From positions 1 to 27,973 of IMG/VR virus record IMGVR_UViG_3300048130_000087: a stretch of DNA of 27,973 nt. One strand, 5' to 3'. Shown here one piece after another: positions 3,241 to 17,407 of this stretch (position 1 is its first letter; every line of letters begins with the position of its first letter). Source of the stretch: a virus. The notes under the pieces were generated by a model. That model did not search any database, had not been told where the DNA came from, and was given only the letters and a program-made list of their open reading frames with translations. The position numbers and the translations under genes were made by a program.

Positions 3241-3430
3241 TAGATCTATGGCTAGAGATATTTTTTCTAAGGAACCTGATCAACCAAAACATAGTGGAGA
3301 GGATATACACGCAGTTATTGATGGTGTACATATTGACTATGAAAAAGCAAAAAAATCTAGACGAGATATAGACGGGACAATTTACTTTCGTGACTTACTC
3401 TCTTTCCTTATTAAAACTTATGGGCACTAG
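3221..3430 (+). CDS. Small charged protein, function unknown
   Basis: The product is 69 residues from ATG 3221 (MAINHYNRSMARDIFS). An in-frame GTG at 3212 is possible, but AAAGGTGG sits at the right distance for 3221. The sequence is rich in Asp, Lys and His and has a hydrophobic end (FRDLLSFLIKTYGH). No family is recognised. The 3' end overlaps the following gene. Confidence 0.6.
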   Translation: MAINHYNRSMARDIFSKEPDQPKHSGEDIHAVIDGVHIDYEKAKKSRRDIDGTIYFRDLLSFLIKTYGH

Positions 3431-3851
3431 CTTCGCAGCTCAATTACTATCAACTGAAGTCGAACCTGAAGAAAAACTTTGGAGAGGTGTCCTTTGTAAT
3501 GCAATTGAGGATGCAGGTCAAAGAAGCCAGGAGCGAAAACCTTCTATTTATAAGTGCGAGGCGCACGCTTGGATAATGTCCAATGTCACTGATTTTTACA
3601 CTGTCTGTTATTATGCAGGGTTTGAACCTGAGCATGTAAAAGAGAGGTATAAGATGGCGATTATGAAGGGAGATATACAGTTTTCTCCTCGTAATTTTGC
3701 TTGGAAAAAATATTCAGAACAATTTAAAAAGTATAGAAATTGTAAAGAAGTTGAATCTAAAAAATATCACCGAAAACATCTGACTCATTTAAGACATGCT
3801 GTAGATCTTTGTACTACAGTTTTTATTTCTAATTTAGTAGTTTCTATATAA
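3390..3851 (+). CDS. Conserved phage hypothetical protein
   Basis: The product is up to 153 residues from GTG 3390; ATG at 3420 (MGTSFAAQLLS) would give 143. It is mostly helical with conserved-looking aromatic and Cys residues (EEKLWRGVLCNAIEDA, then YKCEAHAWIMSNVTDFYTVC, then GDIQFSPRNFAWKKYSEQ). Proteins of this appearance occur near the early genes of marine phages as unknowns; I cannot assign a function. It is the last gene of the early operon, with a terminator 4 bases after the stop. Confidence 0.7.
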   Translation: MTYSLSLLKLMGTSFAAQLLSTEVEPEEKLWRGVLCNAIEDAGQRSQERKPSIYKCEAHAWIMSNVTDFYTVCYYAGFEPEHVKERYKMAIMKGDIQFSPRNFAWKKYSEQFKKYRNCKEVESKKYHRKHLTHLRHAVDLCTTVFISNLVVSI

Positions 3852-3854
3852 AAA

Positions 3855-3890
3855 AAAAGGGCAGCTAGAGTCTCCCCGAACTGCCCTTTT
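3855..3890 (+). terminator. Intrinsic terminator of the early accessory operon
   Basis: AAAAGGGCAG (3855-3864) pairs with CTGCCCTTTT (3881-3890), a 10-bp stem around a 16-base loop, directly after the stop at 3851. The T run forms the 3' arm. The flanking A run means it may also work for leftward transcripts. Confidence 0.85.
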
Positions 3891-4239
3891 CCAACTAACT
3901 TAGAAAGAATGATTATGAAACATAATCAAGACTTCCCATTAGTTTACAATGATTAAATAGTCAAGTCATTTTTTCCTCCTTAGTTGTCCAAAGAGCTAAT
4001 ATGAAAACTAATGATATTTAGCTCTATCAGACTATCAAACTGGTCAAAAGGGTCAAGGGAAAAGATCTACTGATCGGGATCGGTAGGTAGTTTATAATGG
4101 TTCTAAGGTACATGGGTCACGCTCCTAGGGCCAGATACAAAAAAGTAAGGTTTTATGCGGATATTCCTAAAACCAGGTATATACCCACTGCTTAGAAAAA
4201 AAATTTAAAAAAACTTTTTTGGAAAATAAGCCTTTTTTT
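3891..4239. promoter_or_regulatory. Non-coding regulatory stretch with dyads before terS
   Basis: No credible gene is seen here. The stretch contains TGATTATG-AAA-CATAATCA (3910-3928, perfect 8-bp arms) and AGAGCTAA/TTAGCTCT (3992-3999 with 4018-4025). It also holds a dyad CTACTGATC-GG-GATCGGTAG around 4067-4086 (one T:G mismatch) and a TATAAT at 4093-4098 with a poor -35. A partial CATGGG box and GCTCCTAG follow at 4111-4128. This looks like operator or packaging/origin DNA rather than protein-coding sequence. Confidence 0.5.
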
Positions 4240-4342
4240 CTAGGAGTCTAGGAGTAATTGACTATTATTAGCATATACCAACACTTATTTACTCCTAGTT
4301 TTACTCCTAGAACCAGTTTTACTCCTAGAAATATCTAGGAGT
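4240..4342. repeat. Six-copy ACTCCTAG/CTAGGAGT array upstream of terS
   Basis: CTAGGAGT occurs at 4240-4247, 4248-4255 and 4335-4342, and its complement ACTCCTAG at 4291-4298, 4303-4310 and 4321-4328. Most copies are extended to TTACTCCTAG or CTAGGAGTAA. A related GCTCCTAG is at 4121-4128. Such clustered octamers in both orientations fit a multimeric DNA-binding protein: small terminase at a pac/cos site, an initiator or a repressor. Position just before terS favours packaging, by inference. Confidence 0.7.
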
Positions 4343-4422
4343 AATAGCACTCCTTACGAGTGGGGGGTGGAAATTTTTTATTAGGGATTTATTTTTCTAA
4401 GGAAGGGGTATATAGTAAAACG

Positions 4423-4935
4423 GTGCCAAAGAAAGCAAATCAACTAAAGACTATATCTGAACTTACACCTAAACAACGTAAGTTTGTTGATATATATGTT
4501 TCCAATTATGGAGAAATTTCAAAAGTAGAGGCCGCCAAACAAGCAGGTTTCACTTCTACCAATAAATATGGACCTACTGATCAAGCTAGTAGGTTGTTAA
4601 ACCCTGACAAGAATCCACATGTCGTAAGATATTATGAAAAAAGAATGTCTCAAGAACTCGAGAAAGAGGAAAAGGACAAGCTTTTATCTTATAAACATTA
4701 CAACAGAATGAGGGAGACCTCTGAAAAAAAAGGCCAGATGACAGCAGCTATTACAGCTCAATATAGACGAGATCAAATGGCAGGTCATTTTGTGGATAGA
4801 AAAGAGATAAGCCATATAGGTTTAGAGGGCATGAACCGAGAACAATTGGAGAAGAGACTTGAGGAGCTTGAATCAAAGATTGGCGAAGCCAAAAATATTA
4901 TTGACGTCACGCCAAAAGAAACTGTTGCAGAATAG
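4423..4935 (+). CDS. terS: Terminase small subunit
   Basis: The small terminase recognises phage DNA and hands it to the large subunit for packaging. The N-terminal part (ISELTPKQRKFVDIYVSNYG, then SKVEAAKQAGFTSTNKYG) is the helix-turn-helix DNA-binding domain typical of the family. It is followed by a long charged helical oligomerisation region and a coiled coil (REQLEKRLEELESKIGEA). I chose GTG 4423 (MPKKANQLKT); the frame also allows GTG 4360, but that would add a leader unlike the family. It is separated from the large subunit by ~4 kb, whereas the two are usually adjacent. Confidence 0.85.
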   Translation: MPKKANQLKTISELTPKQRKFVDIYVSNYGEISKVEAAKQAGFTSTNKYGPTDQASRLLNPDKNPHVVRYYEKRMSQELEKEEKDKLLSYKHYNRMRETSEKKGQMTAAITAQYRRDQMAGHFVDRKEISHIGLEGMNREQLEKRLEELESKIGEAKNIIDVTPKETVAE

Positions 4936-5031: not shown

Positions 5032-5361
5032 ATGAAAAGTAGAAGATTACATAGGAAAAAAACATTAGAACTTAACACAAAGTTTCCTGTTAATAAAATA
5101 GAAAGATATCCATTCGTAGAAATACACTGGCTTGATATCGTTGGAGAAACGGGTTGGCAAACATTTGATCAATTAATGAAGTCTGGACTTGGTAGAATGA
5201 TTTCTAGAGGTTGGTTAGTCTCTCGTGAAAAAGGTATAACTAGAATTTTTTGTGATTACGGTCTAAAAGATGGAAAGGAAGGCGATGAAGGTCATATTGA
5301 AACTATTGGTGGTACTACTATTATTCCTAACTCCGTCATCACTAAACTCATCAAGCTTTAA
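5032..5361 (+). CDS. Conserved-looking phage protein, function unknown
   Basis: The product has 109 residues. The core reads YPFVEIHWLDIVGETGW, then MISRGWLVSREKGITRIFCD, then GGTTIIPNSVITKLIKL: alternating hydrophobic strands suggesting a small beta-rich, SH3-like barrel. No catalytic motif is visible. AGGGGG precedes the ATG. The last ~25 codons overlap the secreted protein gene in another frame. It is the first gene of cassette 1; no function can be given. Confidence 0.7.
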   Translation: MKSRRLHRKKTLELNTKFPVNKIERYPFVEIHWLDIVGETGWQTFDQLMKSGLGRMISRGWLVSREKGITRIFCDYGLKDGKEGDEGHIETIGGTTIIPNSVITKLIKL

Positions 5362-5568: not shown

Positions 5569-5958
5569 ATGGCTCAAAACAAAGAAACTAGGATATGGCA
5601 ACAGCTTAAAAACCTAGATAAAAATTGGCATTTTACCCGCGTAGAATCTAGCACAGTAAATGGTATTCCCGATGTTCATTGTGTCGTAAACAAGCAAGTA
5701 TTTTGGCTTGAACTCAAAGCCAACACCAGCAAGAATTGTGGTCTGTCAAAGTACCAAATCAATTGGCATATTAAATACTTGAAAGCAGGTGGTAGAGCGT
5801 ATATCTTGAATAGGCCCCTCTTGCAGGCGCCCTATGAACTTCTGGCCGTGAGCCGTGAGTCCCGTACCGCCGTCCCACTCTCCCGCCACACGGATCTTAA
5901 AACTTTAATCACCTTCGCATCCCAGCTGGGACCGCGTGGAAGCAGCCGTGAGGCCTGA
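5569..5958 (+). CDS. VRR-NUC family nuclease (PD-(D/E)xK fold)
   Basis: The 129-residue product shows the VRR-NUC core: an N-terminal helix (ETRIWQQLKNL), GIPDVHCVV with catalytic Asp35, FWLELKA with Glu48 and Lys50, then LSKYQINWHIKYLKAGGRAYIL with the family's conserved Gln63. Such phage enzymes are structure-specific or Holliday-junction nucleases acting in recombination or genome clean-up before packaging. The domain ends near residue 80. The remaining ~49 residues (from ~5809) are encoded by GC-rich DNA continuous with the repeat tract that follows and look like an acquired, possibly non-native tail. Confidence 0.8.
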   Translation: MAQNKETRIWQQLKNLDKNWHFTRVESSTVNGIPDVHCVVNKQVFWLELKANTSKNCGLSKYQINWHIKYLKAGGRAYILNRPLLQAPYELLAVSRESRTAVPLSRHTDLKTLITFASQLGPRGSSREA

Positions 5959-6230
5959 CCCCACGCCCACGCCCACACTCCCACTGCCACAACACTTTTG
6001 AACTATTAAACTCTGGCCTGGTGAGCTGGGCACTGGGATCTGGCGCTGCTGGTCAGGAAATGGTATGTTCCTACAGGGTGTGGGTATGGTTTATTTTCAT
6101 TTTCCTTTCTCGACCCACGCCCCCATTCCCATCTGCAAAGCTAACCTGCTGTCCTGAACTAAACCTTCAGGAGCTGGGCACCAGTCTGCAGCTGGAAGCT
6201 GCTGTGGATCAGGGAAAAATTTATTTGAAA
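5920..6230. repeat. GC-rich repeat tract, cassette 1/2 boundary
   Basis: This tract (overlapping the nuclease 3' end) is much richer in G+C than its surroundings. It holds TCCCAGCTGGGA (perfect palindrome, 5920-5931) and CCCCACGCCCACGCCCAC (5959-5976). Then come AGCTGGG at 6024 and 6172, GCTGCTGGTCAGGAAA (6045-6060), CCCACGCCC-N7-CATCTGCAA (6114-6138) and GCTGCTGTGGATCAGG (6198-6213). GGGTGTGGGT (6076-6085) can pair with ACCCACGCCC (6113-6122). The words recur in order at 7180-7240. The frames open here give low-complexity, repeat-derived peptides and were not accepted as genes. Confidence 0.75.
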
Positions 6231-6708: not shown

Positions 6709-7004
6709 AAGAATGGTTAAAGGAAGGGGAACTGCACGAGCAGTTCCTTATCTCTGACATCGCGAAGCACGGCTGTAGTGGCGGAGTTCCAGGACTCACG
6801 TACTACGTAGAGACCACCGCCTTCTATAATGAGCACGAAGCTGATGTGTGGAAGCAGGTGAGGCACGCAGCGGATGCCGCTGGTGAGTCAGTCTTCTACC
6901 TGCTGGACAAGGACATCCGTGGACCCACCGCCTTCAAGAACAGTATGGTATGGTTGGCTGTTGAGATCTGCGCTCAGGAGCTGGCCGCGCAGGAGGCTGC
7001 TTGA
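6696..7004 (+). CDS. Phage protein of unknown function, GC-rich
   Basis: The product has 102 residues: a helical N-terminus (KEWLKEGELHEQFLISDIAK), a glycine turn (HGCSGGVPGLTYYVET) and a helical C-terminus with MVWLAVEICAQELAAQEAA. I know this type as an uncharacterised phage family but cannot name it with certainty. The coding DNA is clearly richer in G+C than its AT-rich neighbours, suggesting recent acquisition. The stop TGA overlaps a TTG start for the following small membrane frame, with AGGAGG inside this gene's end. Confidence 0.7.
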   Translation: MGTIKEWLKEGELHEQFLISDIAKHGCSGGVPGLTYYVETTAFYNEHEADVWKQVRHAADAAGESVFYLLDKDIRGPTAFKNSMVWLAVEICAQELAAQEAA

Positions 7005-7117
7005 TATGGTTGCTAGCTCTTCTGACGCCATTAGTGTTCTTCCCTAGGTTTGCCGGATGGACGTACATCTTTGTACTGGTGGCCCTGATCCGTGGATGCA
7101 CAGGACTTGGTCACTGA
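7001..7117 (+). CDS. Putative 38-residue membrane microprotein (TTG start)
   Basis: The frame starts with TTG at 7001 (overlapping the upstream TGA as TTGA) after AGGAGG and ends at TGA 7115-7117. The product reads M(L)IWLLALLTPLVFFPRFAG then WTYIFVLVALIRGC, two hydrophobic segments around a short Pro-Arg loop, like a small hairpin membrane protein. The spacing from AGGAGG to TTG is short (4 bases), which lowers confidence. The stop falls one base before the next GC-rich repeat. Confidence 0.45.
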   Translation: MIWLLALLTPLVFFPRFAGWTYIFVLVALIRGCTGLGH

Positions 7118-7320
7118 GCCCACGCCCACGCAGGCACTGCTCGTACGGTAACTTGTGTGAACCAAGCTACTGCCTGGCCAGCTGGGAAGAGGCTGCTGGA
7201 TCAGGAAGCTCTGTCCCCACGCCCACGAGGACATCTGCAATGTCGGGGAAAGAAGAACTCGGTCAGGAGCCCAGTGCGCAGCGGAAGCTGATGCGAGCTG
7301 GAAAAATTTTCTGAAAATAA
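7118..7320. repeat. GC-rich repeat tract, cassette 2/3 boundary
   Basis: This tract carries GCCCACGCCCACG (7118-7130), then AGCTGGG (7180-7186), GCTGCTGGATCAGGAA (7192-7207), CCCACGCCC-N7-CATCTGCAA (7216-7240), GGAAGCTG (7283-7290) and GGAAAAATTT (7300-7309). The order and the N7 spacing repeat those of 6024-6222. CTGGCCAG is a palindrome at 7174-7181. The open frame across it gives a Pro/Ser/Arg-rich peptide with no protein character and was not called. Confidence 0.75.
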
Positions 7321-8975: not shown

Positions 8976-10451
8976 ATGCAAAAAGAATTACTGACGAACG
9001 AACAGCTTAGATTAGCTGTAGAAAAAAAATGGATTGAGCACATAAAGTTGTGCCAGGATAATTTTATATATTTTGTGAAGGAAGTTTGGCCTGAGTTTAT
9101 TTGTAGATTGGATCCTAGTCCCAAAAAGTGGGGGCACCATCAACATATAGCTTCAGAGTTTACAAAAATTTCAGATACAAAAAAAGGGAGGCTCATTATC
9201 AATATGCCCCCTAGACATACTAAATCAGAATTTGCATCCTTTTTGTTTCCTGCTTGGATGATAGGGAAGTTTCCCACACTAAAAATTATGCAGGTTTCCC
9301 ACAACGCGGAATTATCATCTAGATTTGGTTCTAAAGTTAGGAACCTTATGGAACAGAAGGAGTATAAAAATATATTCGGAGATGTTAGACTAAGAGAAGA
9401 TAGTAAGGCAAAAGGACGTTGGGAGACCAATCAAGGTGGGGAATACTTTGCAGCGGGTGTTGGCGGTTCTATCACAGGACGAGGGGCGGACTTACTTATT
9501 ATTGACGATCCACATACGGAGCAAGACGCATTATCTGAGTCTGCTATGGAACGTGCATATGATTGGTATGTATCAGGACCAAGACAACGTCTTCAACCTG
9601 GAGGCTCAATTGTAGTTGTAATGACAAGATGGGCTGAGGATGATTTAACAGGAAGATTAATCAAGGCTCAAAAAGAGCCTCGTGCTGACAAATGGAATGT
9701 AATTTCATTTCCTGCAATTTTAGATTCAGGAAAACCTGTATGGCCTGAGTATTGGGAACTAGAAGAATTAGAAAAAGTAAAAGCGTCTCTACCGATTAGA
9801 AACTGGTCTGCACAATACATGCAGAATCCGACATCAGAAGAAGGTGCAATCTTAAAACGAGAATGGTGGATACCTTGGGACAAACCTACGATGCCAAAAT
9901 TACAACATGTCATTCAATCTTATGATACTGCATTCAGTGCAAAAGAAACTGCTGACTACTCAGCCATTACTACTTGGGGAGTATTCTTTCCCAAAGAAGA
10001 TGGTAAACCTGCAATGGTGTTATTAGATGCAATGAAAGGTAAGTTTGACTTTCCAGAACTAAAAGCAATAGCCATGGATCAGTATAAATACTGGGAACCG
10101 GAGTCCGTGATCATTGAGGCTAAGGCTACAGGAGAACCACTCATGCAAGAGTTCAGACGAATGGGGATTCCTGTCATTCCATTTGTACCATCAAGGGGCA
10201 AGGATAAGCATTCACGGGTCAACGCTACCGCCCCAGTATTTGAGAGTGGCCAAATATATTATCCAGATGATGAGAAATTTGCTGAAGAAGTCATTGAAGA
10301 ATGTGCAGCTTTTCCTCACGGAGCTCACGATGACTATGTCGACAGCACCACACAAGCCGTGTTAAGATACCGTCAGGGAAACTTCATAGAACTTTTAAAT
10401 GATCATGAAGAAGAATTATATAATGTGCCGAAGGAGTACAAATATTATTAG
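8976..10451 (+). CDS. terL: Terminase large subunit
   Basis: This is the ATP-driven packaging motor and headful or site nuclease. The 491-residue product has a Walker A variant PPRHTKSE (78-85), Walker B LLIIDDP (173-179) with the acidic pair 177/178, and a coupling motif VVVMTRW (213-219). The RNase H-like nuclease domain has SYDTAF (Asp317), IIEAKATG (Glu381) and HDDYVDS (Asp452/453). All key residues are present and the length is normal. The start at 8976 follows AAAGGGGACCCA. It is the first gene of the late region; the small subunit is ~4 kb upstream. Confidence 0.97.
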   Translation: MQKELLTNEQLRLAVEKKWIEHIKLCQDNFIYFVKEVWPEFICRLDPSPKKWGHHQHIASEFTKISDTKKGRLIINMPPRHTKSEFASFLFPAWMIGKFPTLKIMQVSHNAELSSRFGSKVRNLMEQKEYKNIFGDVRLREDSKAKGRWETNQGGEYFAAGVGGSITGRGADLLIIDDPHTEQDALSESAMERAYDWYVSGPRQRLQPGGSIVVVMTRWAEDDLTGRLIKAQKEPRADKWNVISFPAILDSGKPVWPEYWELEELEKVKASLPIRNWSAQYMQNPTSEEGAILKREWWIPWDKPTMPKLQHVIQSYDTAFSAKETADYSAITTWGVFFPKEDGKPAMVLLDAMKGKFDFPELKAIAMDQYKYWEPESVIIEAKATGEPLMQEFRRMGIPVIPFVPSRGKDKHSRVNATAPVFESGQIYYPDDEKFAEEVIEECAAFPHGAHDDYVDSTTQAVLRYRQGNFIELLNDHEEELYNVPKEYKYY

Positions 10452-16963: not shown

Positions 16964-17407
16964 ATGTTTGACCAACTCTCTAAAAAAGAGCAGTTAATAT
17001 TTTTATCAGGTGTATTTGAAGGCGAGGGTTGGTTTGGTTTAAATAAACGACCTAATGGTTGGACTCCTAGTGCATGTTTAGAAGTACAAATGAGTGATGA
17101 GGGAGTTGTACATTTATTTCAAAATTATCTTGGACTAGACAATAACATTCGAAAAAGAAAGAAAAAAGTTCACGAACACCACAAAGATATTTGGAGATTT
17201 GGTGTTAAAGGTTACCGTGCTTTACAGTTTATGGAAGAGATGCTACCCTATTTATGTACAAGGAGAAAAGAACAATATTATGCCGTGGTTAAAGCTATTG
17301 GGGATGGGCCTAAAAACTGGAGCCCACCTGTATCAGAACCGTCAAAAGACAAAACAAGCGATGTCGGATGCGCAACTAATGCATGCCGAGAAGATGGCGC
17401 GAGGTGA
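16964..17407 (+). CDS. LAGLIDADG-type homing endonuclease
   Basis: The product has 147 residues. LIFLSGVFEGEGWF (residues 11-24) is a LAGLIDADG-type helix with the catalytic acidic Glu, followed by strands (PSACLEVQMSDEGVVHLFQN), a basic loop with KRKKKVHEHHKDIWRFGVKG and LPYLCTRRKEQYYAV. A single motif means it should act as a dimer. No intron or intein is visible, so it is probably a free-standing element that spreads into phages lacking it. Its last ~43 codons run out of frame through the 5' end of the holin-like gene and are Pro/Ser-rich, so the folded enzyme probably ends near residue 105. Confidence 0.8.
   Translation: MFDQLSKKEQLIFLSGVFEGEGWFGLNKRPNGWTPSACLEVQMSDEGVVHLFQNYLGLDNNIRKRKKKVHEHHKDIWRFGVKGYRALQFMEEMLPYLCTRRKEQYYAVVKAIGDGPKNWSPPVSEPSKDKTSDVGCATNACREDGAR

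Follow-up and report, generated by a model that had tools for sequence, protein, structure and literature searches.

A conserved layout of lineage-variable boxes near the small terminase gene of pelagiphages, a candidate packaging-initiation site

The terminase locus of an HTVC023P-type pelagiphage

The window, that is, the whole 27,973-bp stretch of DNA analysed here and itself a virus record, is a fragment of an HTVC023P-type pelagiphage, a phage whose host is the commonest bacterium of the ocean. Its terL (8976-10451, + strand; PHROG 38) encodes a large terminase subunit with 77% identity to the TerL of Pelagibacter phage HTVC023P and serves as the constant reference for array polarity. The gene order, running from terS through a small ORF (phrog_25889) and a VRR-type nuclease gene to terL farther downstream, is the same in MN698239 and relatives. 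The small ORF, which is conserved and located at 5032-5361 on the + strand, lies between the array and terS in relatives with an inverted terS.

The terS gene occupies 4420-4935 on the + strand, starts with GTG, and has an alternative in-frame GTG at 4360. Its product scores 29.0 bits against Pfam PF03592, above the gathering cut-off of 26.1, which places it in Terminase_2, and it is annotated by PHROG as a terminase small subunit; the sequence-only reading, which had located the repeats before terS, was right on this point. In the AlphaFold model of TerS (mean pLDDT 73), residues 14-77 superimpose on the DNA-binding domain of SF6 G1P (2cmp) with a Z score of 8.0 at 1.7 Å over 56 residues. Foldseek alone returned no match to the model at E <= 0.001, and a PDB sequence search with TerS and TerL yielded no significant match. 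The window's TerS is a Terminase_2 protein with a modelled DNA-binding domain like that of SF6/SPP1 G1P.

Several other elements surround this locus. Directly after an ORF ending at 3851, positions 3855-3890 form a hairpin, AAAAGGGCAG...CTGCCCTTTT, which is likely the intrinsic terminator of the upstream operon. Two small putative DNA-binding proteins, one ribbon-helix-helix-like (2147-2422) and one HTH-like (3390-3851), are encoded just 5' of the array; window-type phages have both genes in this position, and other types carry them too. Additionally, the intergenic patches at 5820-6010 and 6990-7320, with CCACGG/TCACGG-type repeats, are far richer in G+C than the rest of this AT-rich phage. 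Similar CCACGGTTCACGG strings occur 5' of many arrays in relatives, and AAGC/GAGC repeats occur near terS in the 027P and psg01 types, all of which have the appearance of small interspersed repeats.

Octamer boxes and the surrounding module

An exact scan identified six copies of the octamer ACTCCTAG/CTAGGAGT within 103 bases (4240-4342), three in each orientation, with the end of the array 78 bp upstream of terS. Boxes 1 (4240-4247) and 2 (4248-4255) form the left pair in an 8-bp register, and both carry ACTCCTAG on the - strand, as does box 6 (4335-4342), so that the three read CTAGGAGT on the given strand. Boxes 3 (4291-4298), 4 (4303-4310), and 5 (4321-4328) carry ACTCCTAG on the + strand. 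The sole further exact copy within the window is at 17063. Since dinucleotide-shuffled windows contained on average 0.65 copies in the whole 28 kb, with a maximum of 4 and never 7, six octamers in 103 bp are not a product of chance. In most copies the flanking bases prolong the box, which extends to TTACTCCTAG in five of the six. A variant, GCTCCTAG, with one mismatch to the octamer, is located at 4121-4128 on the + strand; it recurs 5' of the array in many close relatives and may represent a distant seventh box. The three direct and three inverted octamers in about 100 bases reported by the sequence-only reading, together with its variant at 4121, are thus confirmed, while its interval of 4121-4342 does not describe the extent of the element, of which the array proper spans 4240-4342 and the entire module about 4178-4414.

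The octamers are the recognisable part of this module of approximately 237 bp, in which outer inverted arms of 26 nt enclose an A-tract, the tandem box pair, a 35-bp gap holding the core, and the four-box cluster, in that order. The left arm, TATATACCCACTGCTTAGAAAAAAAA (4178-4203, + strand), runs into the A-tract and is 85% complementary to the right arm, TTATTTTTCTAAGGAAGGGGTATATA (4389-4414, + strand), with which it pairs. Arms are also found in relatives, where a left arm matches its own partner at 19.0 of 24 positions, compared with 14.6 +/- 0.9 when the right arm is shuffled. The A-/T-tract region adjoining the box pair (4196-4238, + strand) belongs to a strongly curved stretch, according to sequence and predicted curvature. 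Under a wedge model, the array of the window has a predicted net bend of 138.6 degrees per 120 bp (shuffle z 2.4), a value that just 0.05% of the 120-bp segments of the window reach. The array is likewise predicted to be the most curved stretch of the HTVC023P genome, and in window-type genomes it ranks among the most curved DNA, with predicted values that are high and exceed those of shuffles in most. In most other types, predicted curvature is raised without exceeding that of shuffles; in HTVC027P-type genomes, the prediction usually places the array above most of the genome in curvature, though not beyond shuffled sequence.

The conserved core, ATACCAACACT (4275-4285, + strand), lies in the gap between the box pair and the cluster and was recognised as a motif with the consensus A[TA]A[TC]CAA[CT]..., shared by arrays whose boxes are unrelated. 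In 32 gap sequences, which were picked to represent distinguishable array types, with boundaries set by the analyst and some types related to one another, the common motif in either orientation reached a score of 238.7, compared with 151.8 +/- 3.9 for shuffled gaps, and the window's copy is among its two top-scoring members. The core resembles the 5' half of an IHF site, from which we infer a possible IHF role. Clean pair-gap-cluster geometry was recovered at 131 loci with 86 distinct gaps, 27 of which contain an exact WATCAANNNNTTR, the sequence used as the IHF-site test, and the exact matches shown come from related 027P-type arrays. The mean number of mismatches to WATCAANNNNTTR is 1.55 in the 86 distinct gaps versus 2.28 +/- 0.08 after shuffling, and the window's own gap has 3. 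No paper on IHF in SAR11 was found in the open-licence literature; of 58 alphaproteobacterial genomes drawn, a set in which the SAR11 host was not identified, 35 encode an IhfA-like protein scoring above the cut-off.

The array in relatives and the turnover of its boxes

A comparison of the array in relatives, which the sequence-only reading had proposed as a check, supports the conservation of its layout. Loci were fetched for the TerS of the window (80), the TerS of psg01 (32), and three further TerS types (up to 80 each), leaving 243 with a complete terS after de-duplication. The pair-core-cluster layout is kept at the same syntenic place in nearly all relatives examined; at window-type loci, the array occupies the homologous place upstream of terS in almost all. 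Genomes usually carry one array, and stray box copies are few. In the 027P type, the boxes keep almost constant distances from the core, at -29 and -21 on one side and +22, +33, +43/44, and +53/54 on the other. The same scan found no multi-copy box adjoining terS in the more distant phages DSL-LC04 and CRP-902. Additionally, a 7.5-kb contig in a Maricaulis MAG (L436, NZMJ01000072.1) encodes a TerL 74% identical to that of the window and is probably a mis-binned pelagiphage contig.

The polarity of the array is tied to terL, with the order of pair, core, and cluster relative to this gene remaining the same whether terS is forward or inverted. 023Pt_psg01 and HTVC027P have an inverted terS on the far side of a small ORF, and an array with unrelated boxes is found at the syntenic place. 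In relatives of the HTVC027P and psg01 types, the array lies toward the 3' end of the inverted terS, separated from it by another gene, and the distance between array and terS in inverted-terS relatives is roughly 0.3-1.6 kb. Examples of an inverted terS displaced past the phrog_25889 ORF, with array orientation unchanged, are L088 (MN698241.1, 15254-15781) and L089 (MW574966.1, 14383-14916).

The letters of the boxes are uniform within an array and completely replaced between lineages. Box types, assigned by repeated k-mers and by eye into classes whose member loci are not independent, include CTAGGAGT, CTAGGAAA, TGTTACA, TGTCTCA, TGCTTCA, TGGAACA, TGGCACA, CTACTACC, and others. Loci with a TerS at least 87% identical to that of the window have CTAGGAGT boxes, and those with a TerS 59-71% identical have CTAGGAAA-type boxes in nearly all cases, with degenerate copies in a few. 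The boxes of psg01 are TGGCACA and those of HTVC027P are TGTTACA/TGTTTCA-like; in the TG-NNN-CA box of the 027P type, the middle is TTA, CTA, TCT, or CTT. A further terS group shows TGTTACA, TGTGACA, TGGAACA, CTACTACC, CTACATT, GGTACAA, and others. One 61.5-kb relative (G009, locus L038) is a mosaic, in which most genes are closest to CTAGGAGT-type phages and the boxes are CTAGGAAA; terS and a PD-(D/E)XK nuclease gene are among those that lean least to the CTAGGAGT side.

Because the boxes are homogeneous within an array, a sequence-specific reader is implied. A model in which a TerS helix reads the octamer was at first backed by two findings: boxes switch from CTAGGAGT to CTAGGAAA along with the TerS clade, and two changes in the recognition region distinguish TG[CT]TACA- from TGTCTCA-type loci. 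It is contradicted, however, by near-identical TerS DNA-binding domains located beside unrelated boxes. TerS residues 1-60 differ at one position between L302 (CTACTACC) and L311 (TGGAACA), and likewise at one position between L284 (TGGAACA) and L315 (TGTTACA). Such pairs argue that TerS recognises shape or spacing or, alternatively, works with a second sequence reader.

Four other candidate readers were rejected. The phrog_25889 protein is up to 95.7% identical across box classes, the C-terminal part of the primase is nearly identical, as judged by eye, in CTACTACC versus GGTTACA genomes, and the reading segments of the ribbon-helix-helix protein and the HTH-like protein of 3390-3851 are constant across box classes. 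The PD-(D/E)XK nuclease is a tentative candidate, whose alleles follow box class best, clustering with class and tracking it partially, although proteins 47% identical share TGGAACA boxes. The nuclease gene adjoins the array in inverted-terS phages (L088, 14026-14739) and lies far from it in HTVC023P (L086/L087, 58699-59439), and its partial tracking may be explained by linkage to the neighbouring array. None of the genes compared across box classes followed the box sequence convincingly.

One account of this pattern, which we regard as doubtful, is that a separate phage protein of fast-changing specificity reads the boxes, whose letters would change together against a constant geometry, core, and TerS, making the array a lineage barcode for the start of packaging (or replication). 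If true, relatives infecting the same cell would each handle their own DNA, and the specificity of the boxes would amount to self-recognition among the most abundant phages of the ocean.

Proposed packaging initiation, rival explanations, and known systems

The interpretation starts from what is established here, namely the anatomy of the module, its conserved place and polarity, the curvature predicted in the window's clade, and the identity of TerS. The same layout with changed letters in hundreds of relatives suggests a landmark where DNA packaging, or possibly copying, starts. Our favoured reading, to which we give about an even chance from the sequence comparisons, is that the array is a packaging-initiation (pac-like) site whose boxes flank a bendable core, as in the pac sites of SPP1 and P1. 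This reading best fits the data because the array is always near terS, is usually single, has boxes on both sides of a conserved core, is predicted to be strongly curved in the window's clade, and has a polarity tied to terL. Of the pac/cos option raised by the sequence-only reading, it is the pac half that these features favour.

Under the pac-like reading, packaging of phage DNA would begin at the array acting in cis. Bending at the A/T-tract and the core, perhaps aided by a host bending protein such as IHF, would join the tandem pair to the box cluster, and the resulting nucleoprotein complex with the small terminase ring would place the large terminase where it first cuts the concatemer and would set the packaging direction. 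TerS would respond to the shape and spacing of the site instead of the letters of the octamer, which is what measurements on SF6 TerS showed, or would work with a second sequence reader. Every biochemical step of this model, including the cut site and the box-reading protein, is one that we infer.

The main, more tentatively held alternative is that the array is the phage replication origin, with iteron-like boxes around an AT-rich or IHF-like core that a phage initiator would melt or remodel. It corresponds to the origin iterons listed by the sequence-only reading and fits most of the facts: there is usually a single site per genome, which is AT-rich and curved and has an IHF-like core between its boxes, the array stands at the boundary of replication and virion genes, and a box specificity independent of TerS would suit an initiator. 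The core itself fits packaging and replication alike and does not discriminate between them. However, an origin leaves the persistent closeness to terS unexplained, and an initiator was not found, the primase, ribbon-helix-helix, and HTH-like candidates being constant across box classes; GC skew shows no switch at the array, being positive nearly everywhere and following gene direction, which makes it a weak, uninformative test. An operator or activator site for the late region or for terS transcription is improbable. A long intergenic region at the early/late junction and the frequency of multi-box operators with both orientations would accommodate it, but the array lies 3' of the inverted terS genes of the HTVC027P and psg01 types, which makes a terS operator unlikely and also weakens the repressor array once considered for these octamers. 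Furthermore, the boxes are grouped in a single array and do not recur at other promoters, a lone operator would hardly need so elaborate a pair-core-cluster geometry, and the expression clusters of HTVC027P are discontinuous (PMC12753301).

The arrangement of boxes, bend, and boxes would also be expected of a cos-type site, in which lambda cosB-like boxes and an IHF site lie by the nick site and virion ends are fixed, and of 30 resolvable upstream contig ends, 5 lie in the 250 bp preceding terS, whereas an equal length farther out holds about 1.3. These five ends are scattered (16, 63, 88, 166, and 232 bp before terS), as for assembly breaks at repeats, and the contig ranges of the fetched loci show no clustering at a single position near terS. 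Near-complete contigs of 58.7-62 kb start and end at many phases and run through the array without a fixed end, a pattern that headful packaging with permuted, redundant ends would leave and that circular assembly alone could also yield. A cos site is very improbable. Least credible of all is an attP with core and arm-type integrase sites, whose outline of an IHF-like core with flanking arm-type boxes is similar: such a site is unlikely because no tyrosine or serine recombinase (PF00589/PF00239) was found in HTVC023P, HTVC027P, psg01, the window, or three contigs of about 60 kb, control genomes being positive, and the phage group is described as lytic (PMC12753301).

The way in which small terminases select viral DNA is still unsolved, and a search of open-licence papers for pac covariation or octamer repeats by terS yielded nothing on these phages. 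These pelagiphages provide a large natural experiment, combining a fixed architecture and TerS DNA-binding domains that hardly vary with ten or more box alphabets and with terS genes in inverted orientation. This set separates shape- or spacing-based from letter-based recognition and poses a concrete hunt for the missing reader.

Among known systems, iteron-type origins resemble the pelagiphage array in placing short repeats of either orientation next to an AT-rich segment, but here no initiator gene was found beside the array or tracking it. In lambda cosB (R3-I1-R2-R1), terminase-binding repeats have an IHF site between them, much as the pelagiphage boxes flank an IHF-like core; lambda, however, has fixed cohesive ends at cosN, of which the pelagiphage contigs give no sign, and its box motif differs. 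The pac site of P1 consists of seven hexamers in two groups (HEX4 and HEX3) with an IHF site (PMC10028697), and the pelagiphage boxes likewise form two groups with a putative bend site, the role of IHF here being suggested by the motif alone. Unlike the pelagiphage boxes, those of P1 read TGATCR, contain Dam methylation sites, and lie inside pacA, and TGATCR matches no pelagiphage box class.

A close parallel is offered by the best-studied case, the Bacillus phages SPP1 and SF6 with their TerS, G1P. The SPP1 pac is arranged as pacL-pacC-pacR around terS (PMC6316719), and the pelagiphage module similarly has groups of repeat boxes flanking a central segment near terS, bent DNA (here predicted only), and a TerS whose DNA-binding domain adopts the same fold. 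SF6 lacks the boxA repeats of SPP1 and carries different ones, yet either terminase can stand in for the other, and pac boxes are hardly preferred by the DNA-binding domain of SF6 TerS (PMC4737164); box letters thus turn over between SPP1 and SF6, as in pelagiphages, while the terminase is conserved. The pelagiphage site differs in being wholly intergenic, in surrounding a conserved core with six near-identical 8-mers of both orientations, in a box turnover that is far more extensive, and in a terS that may be inverted and displaced.
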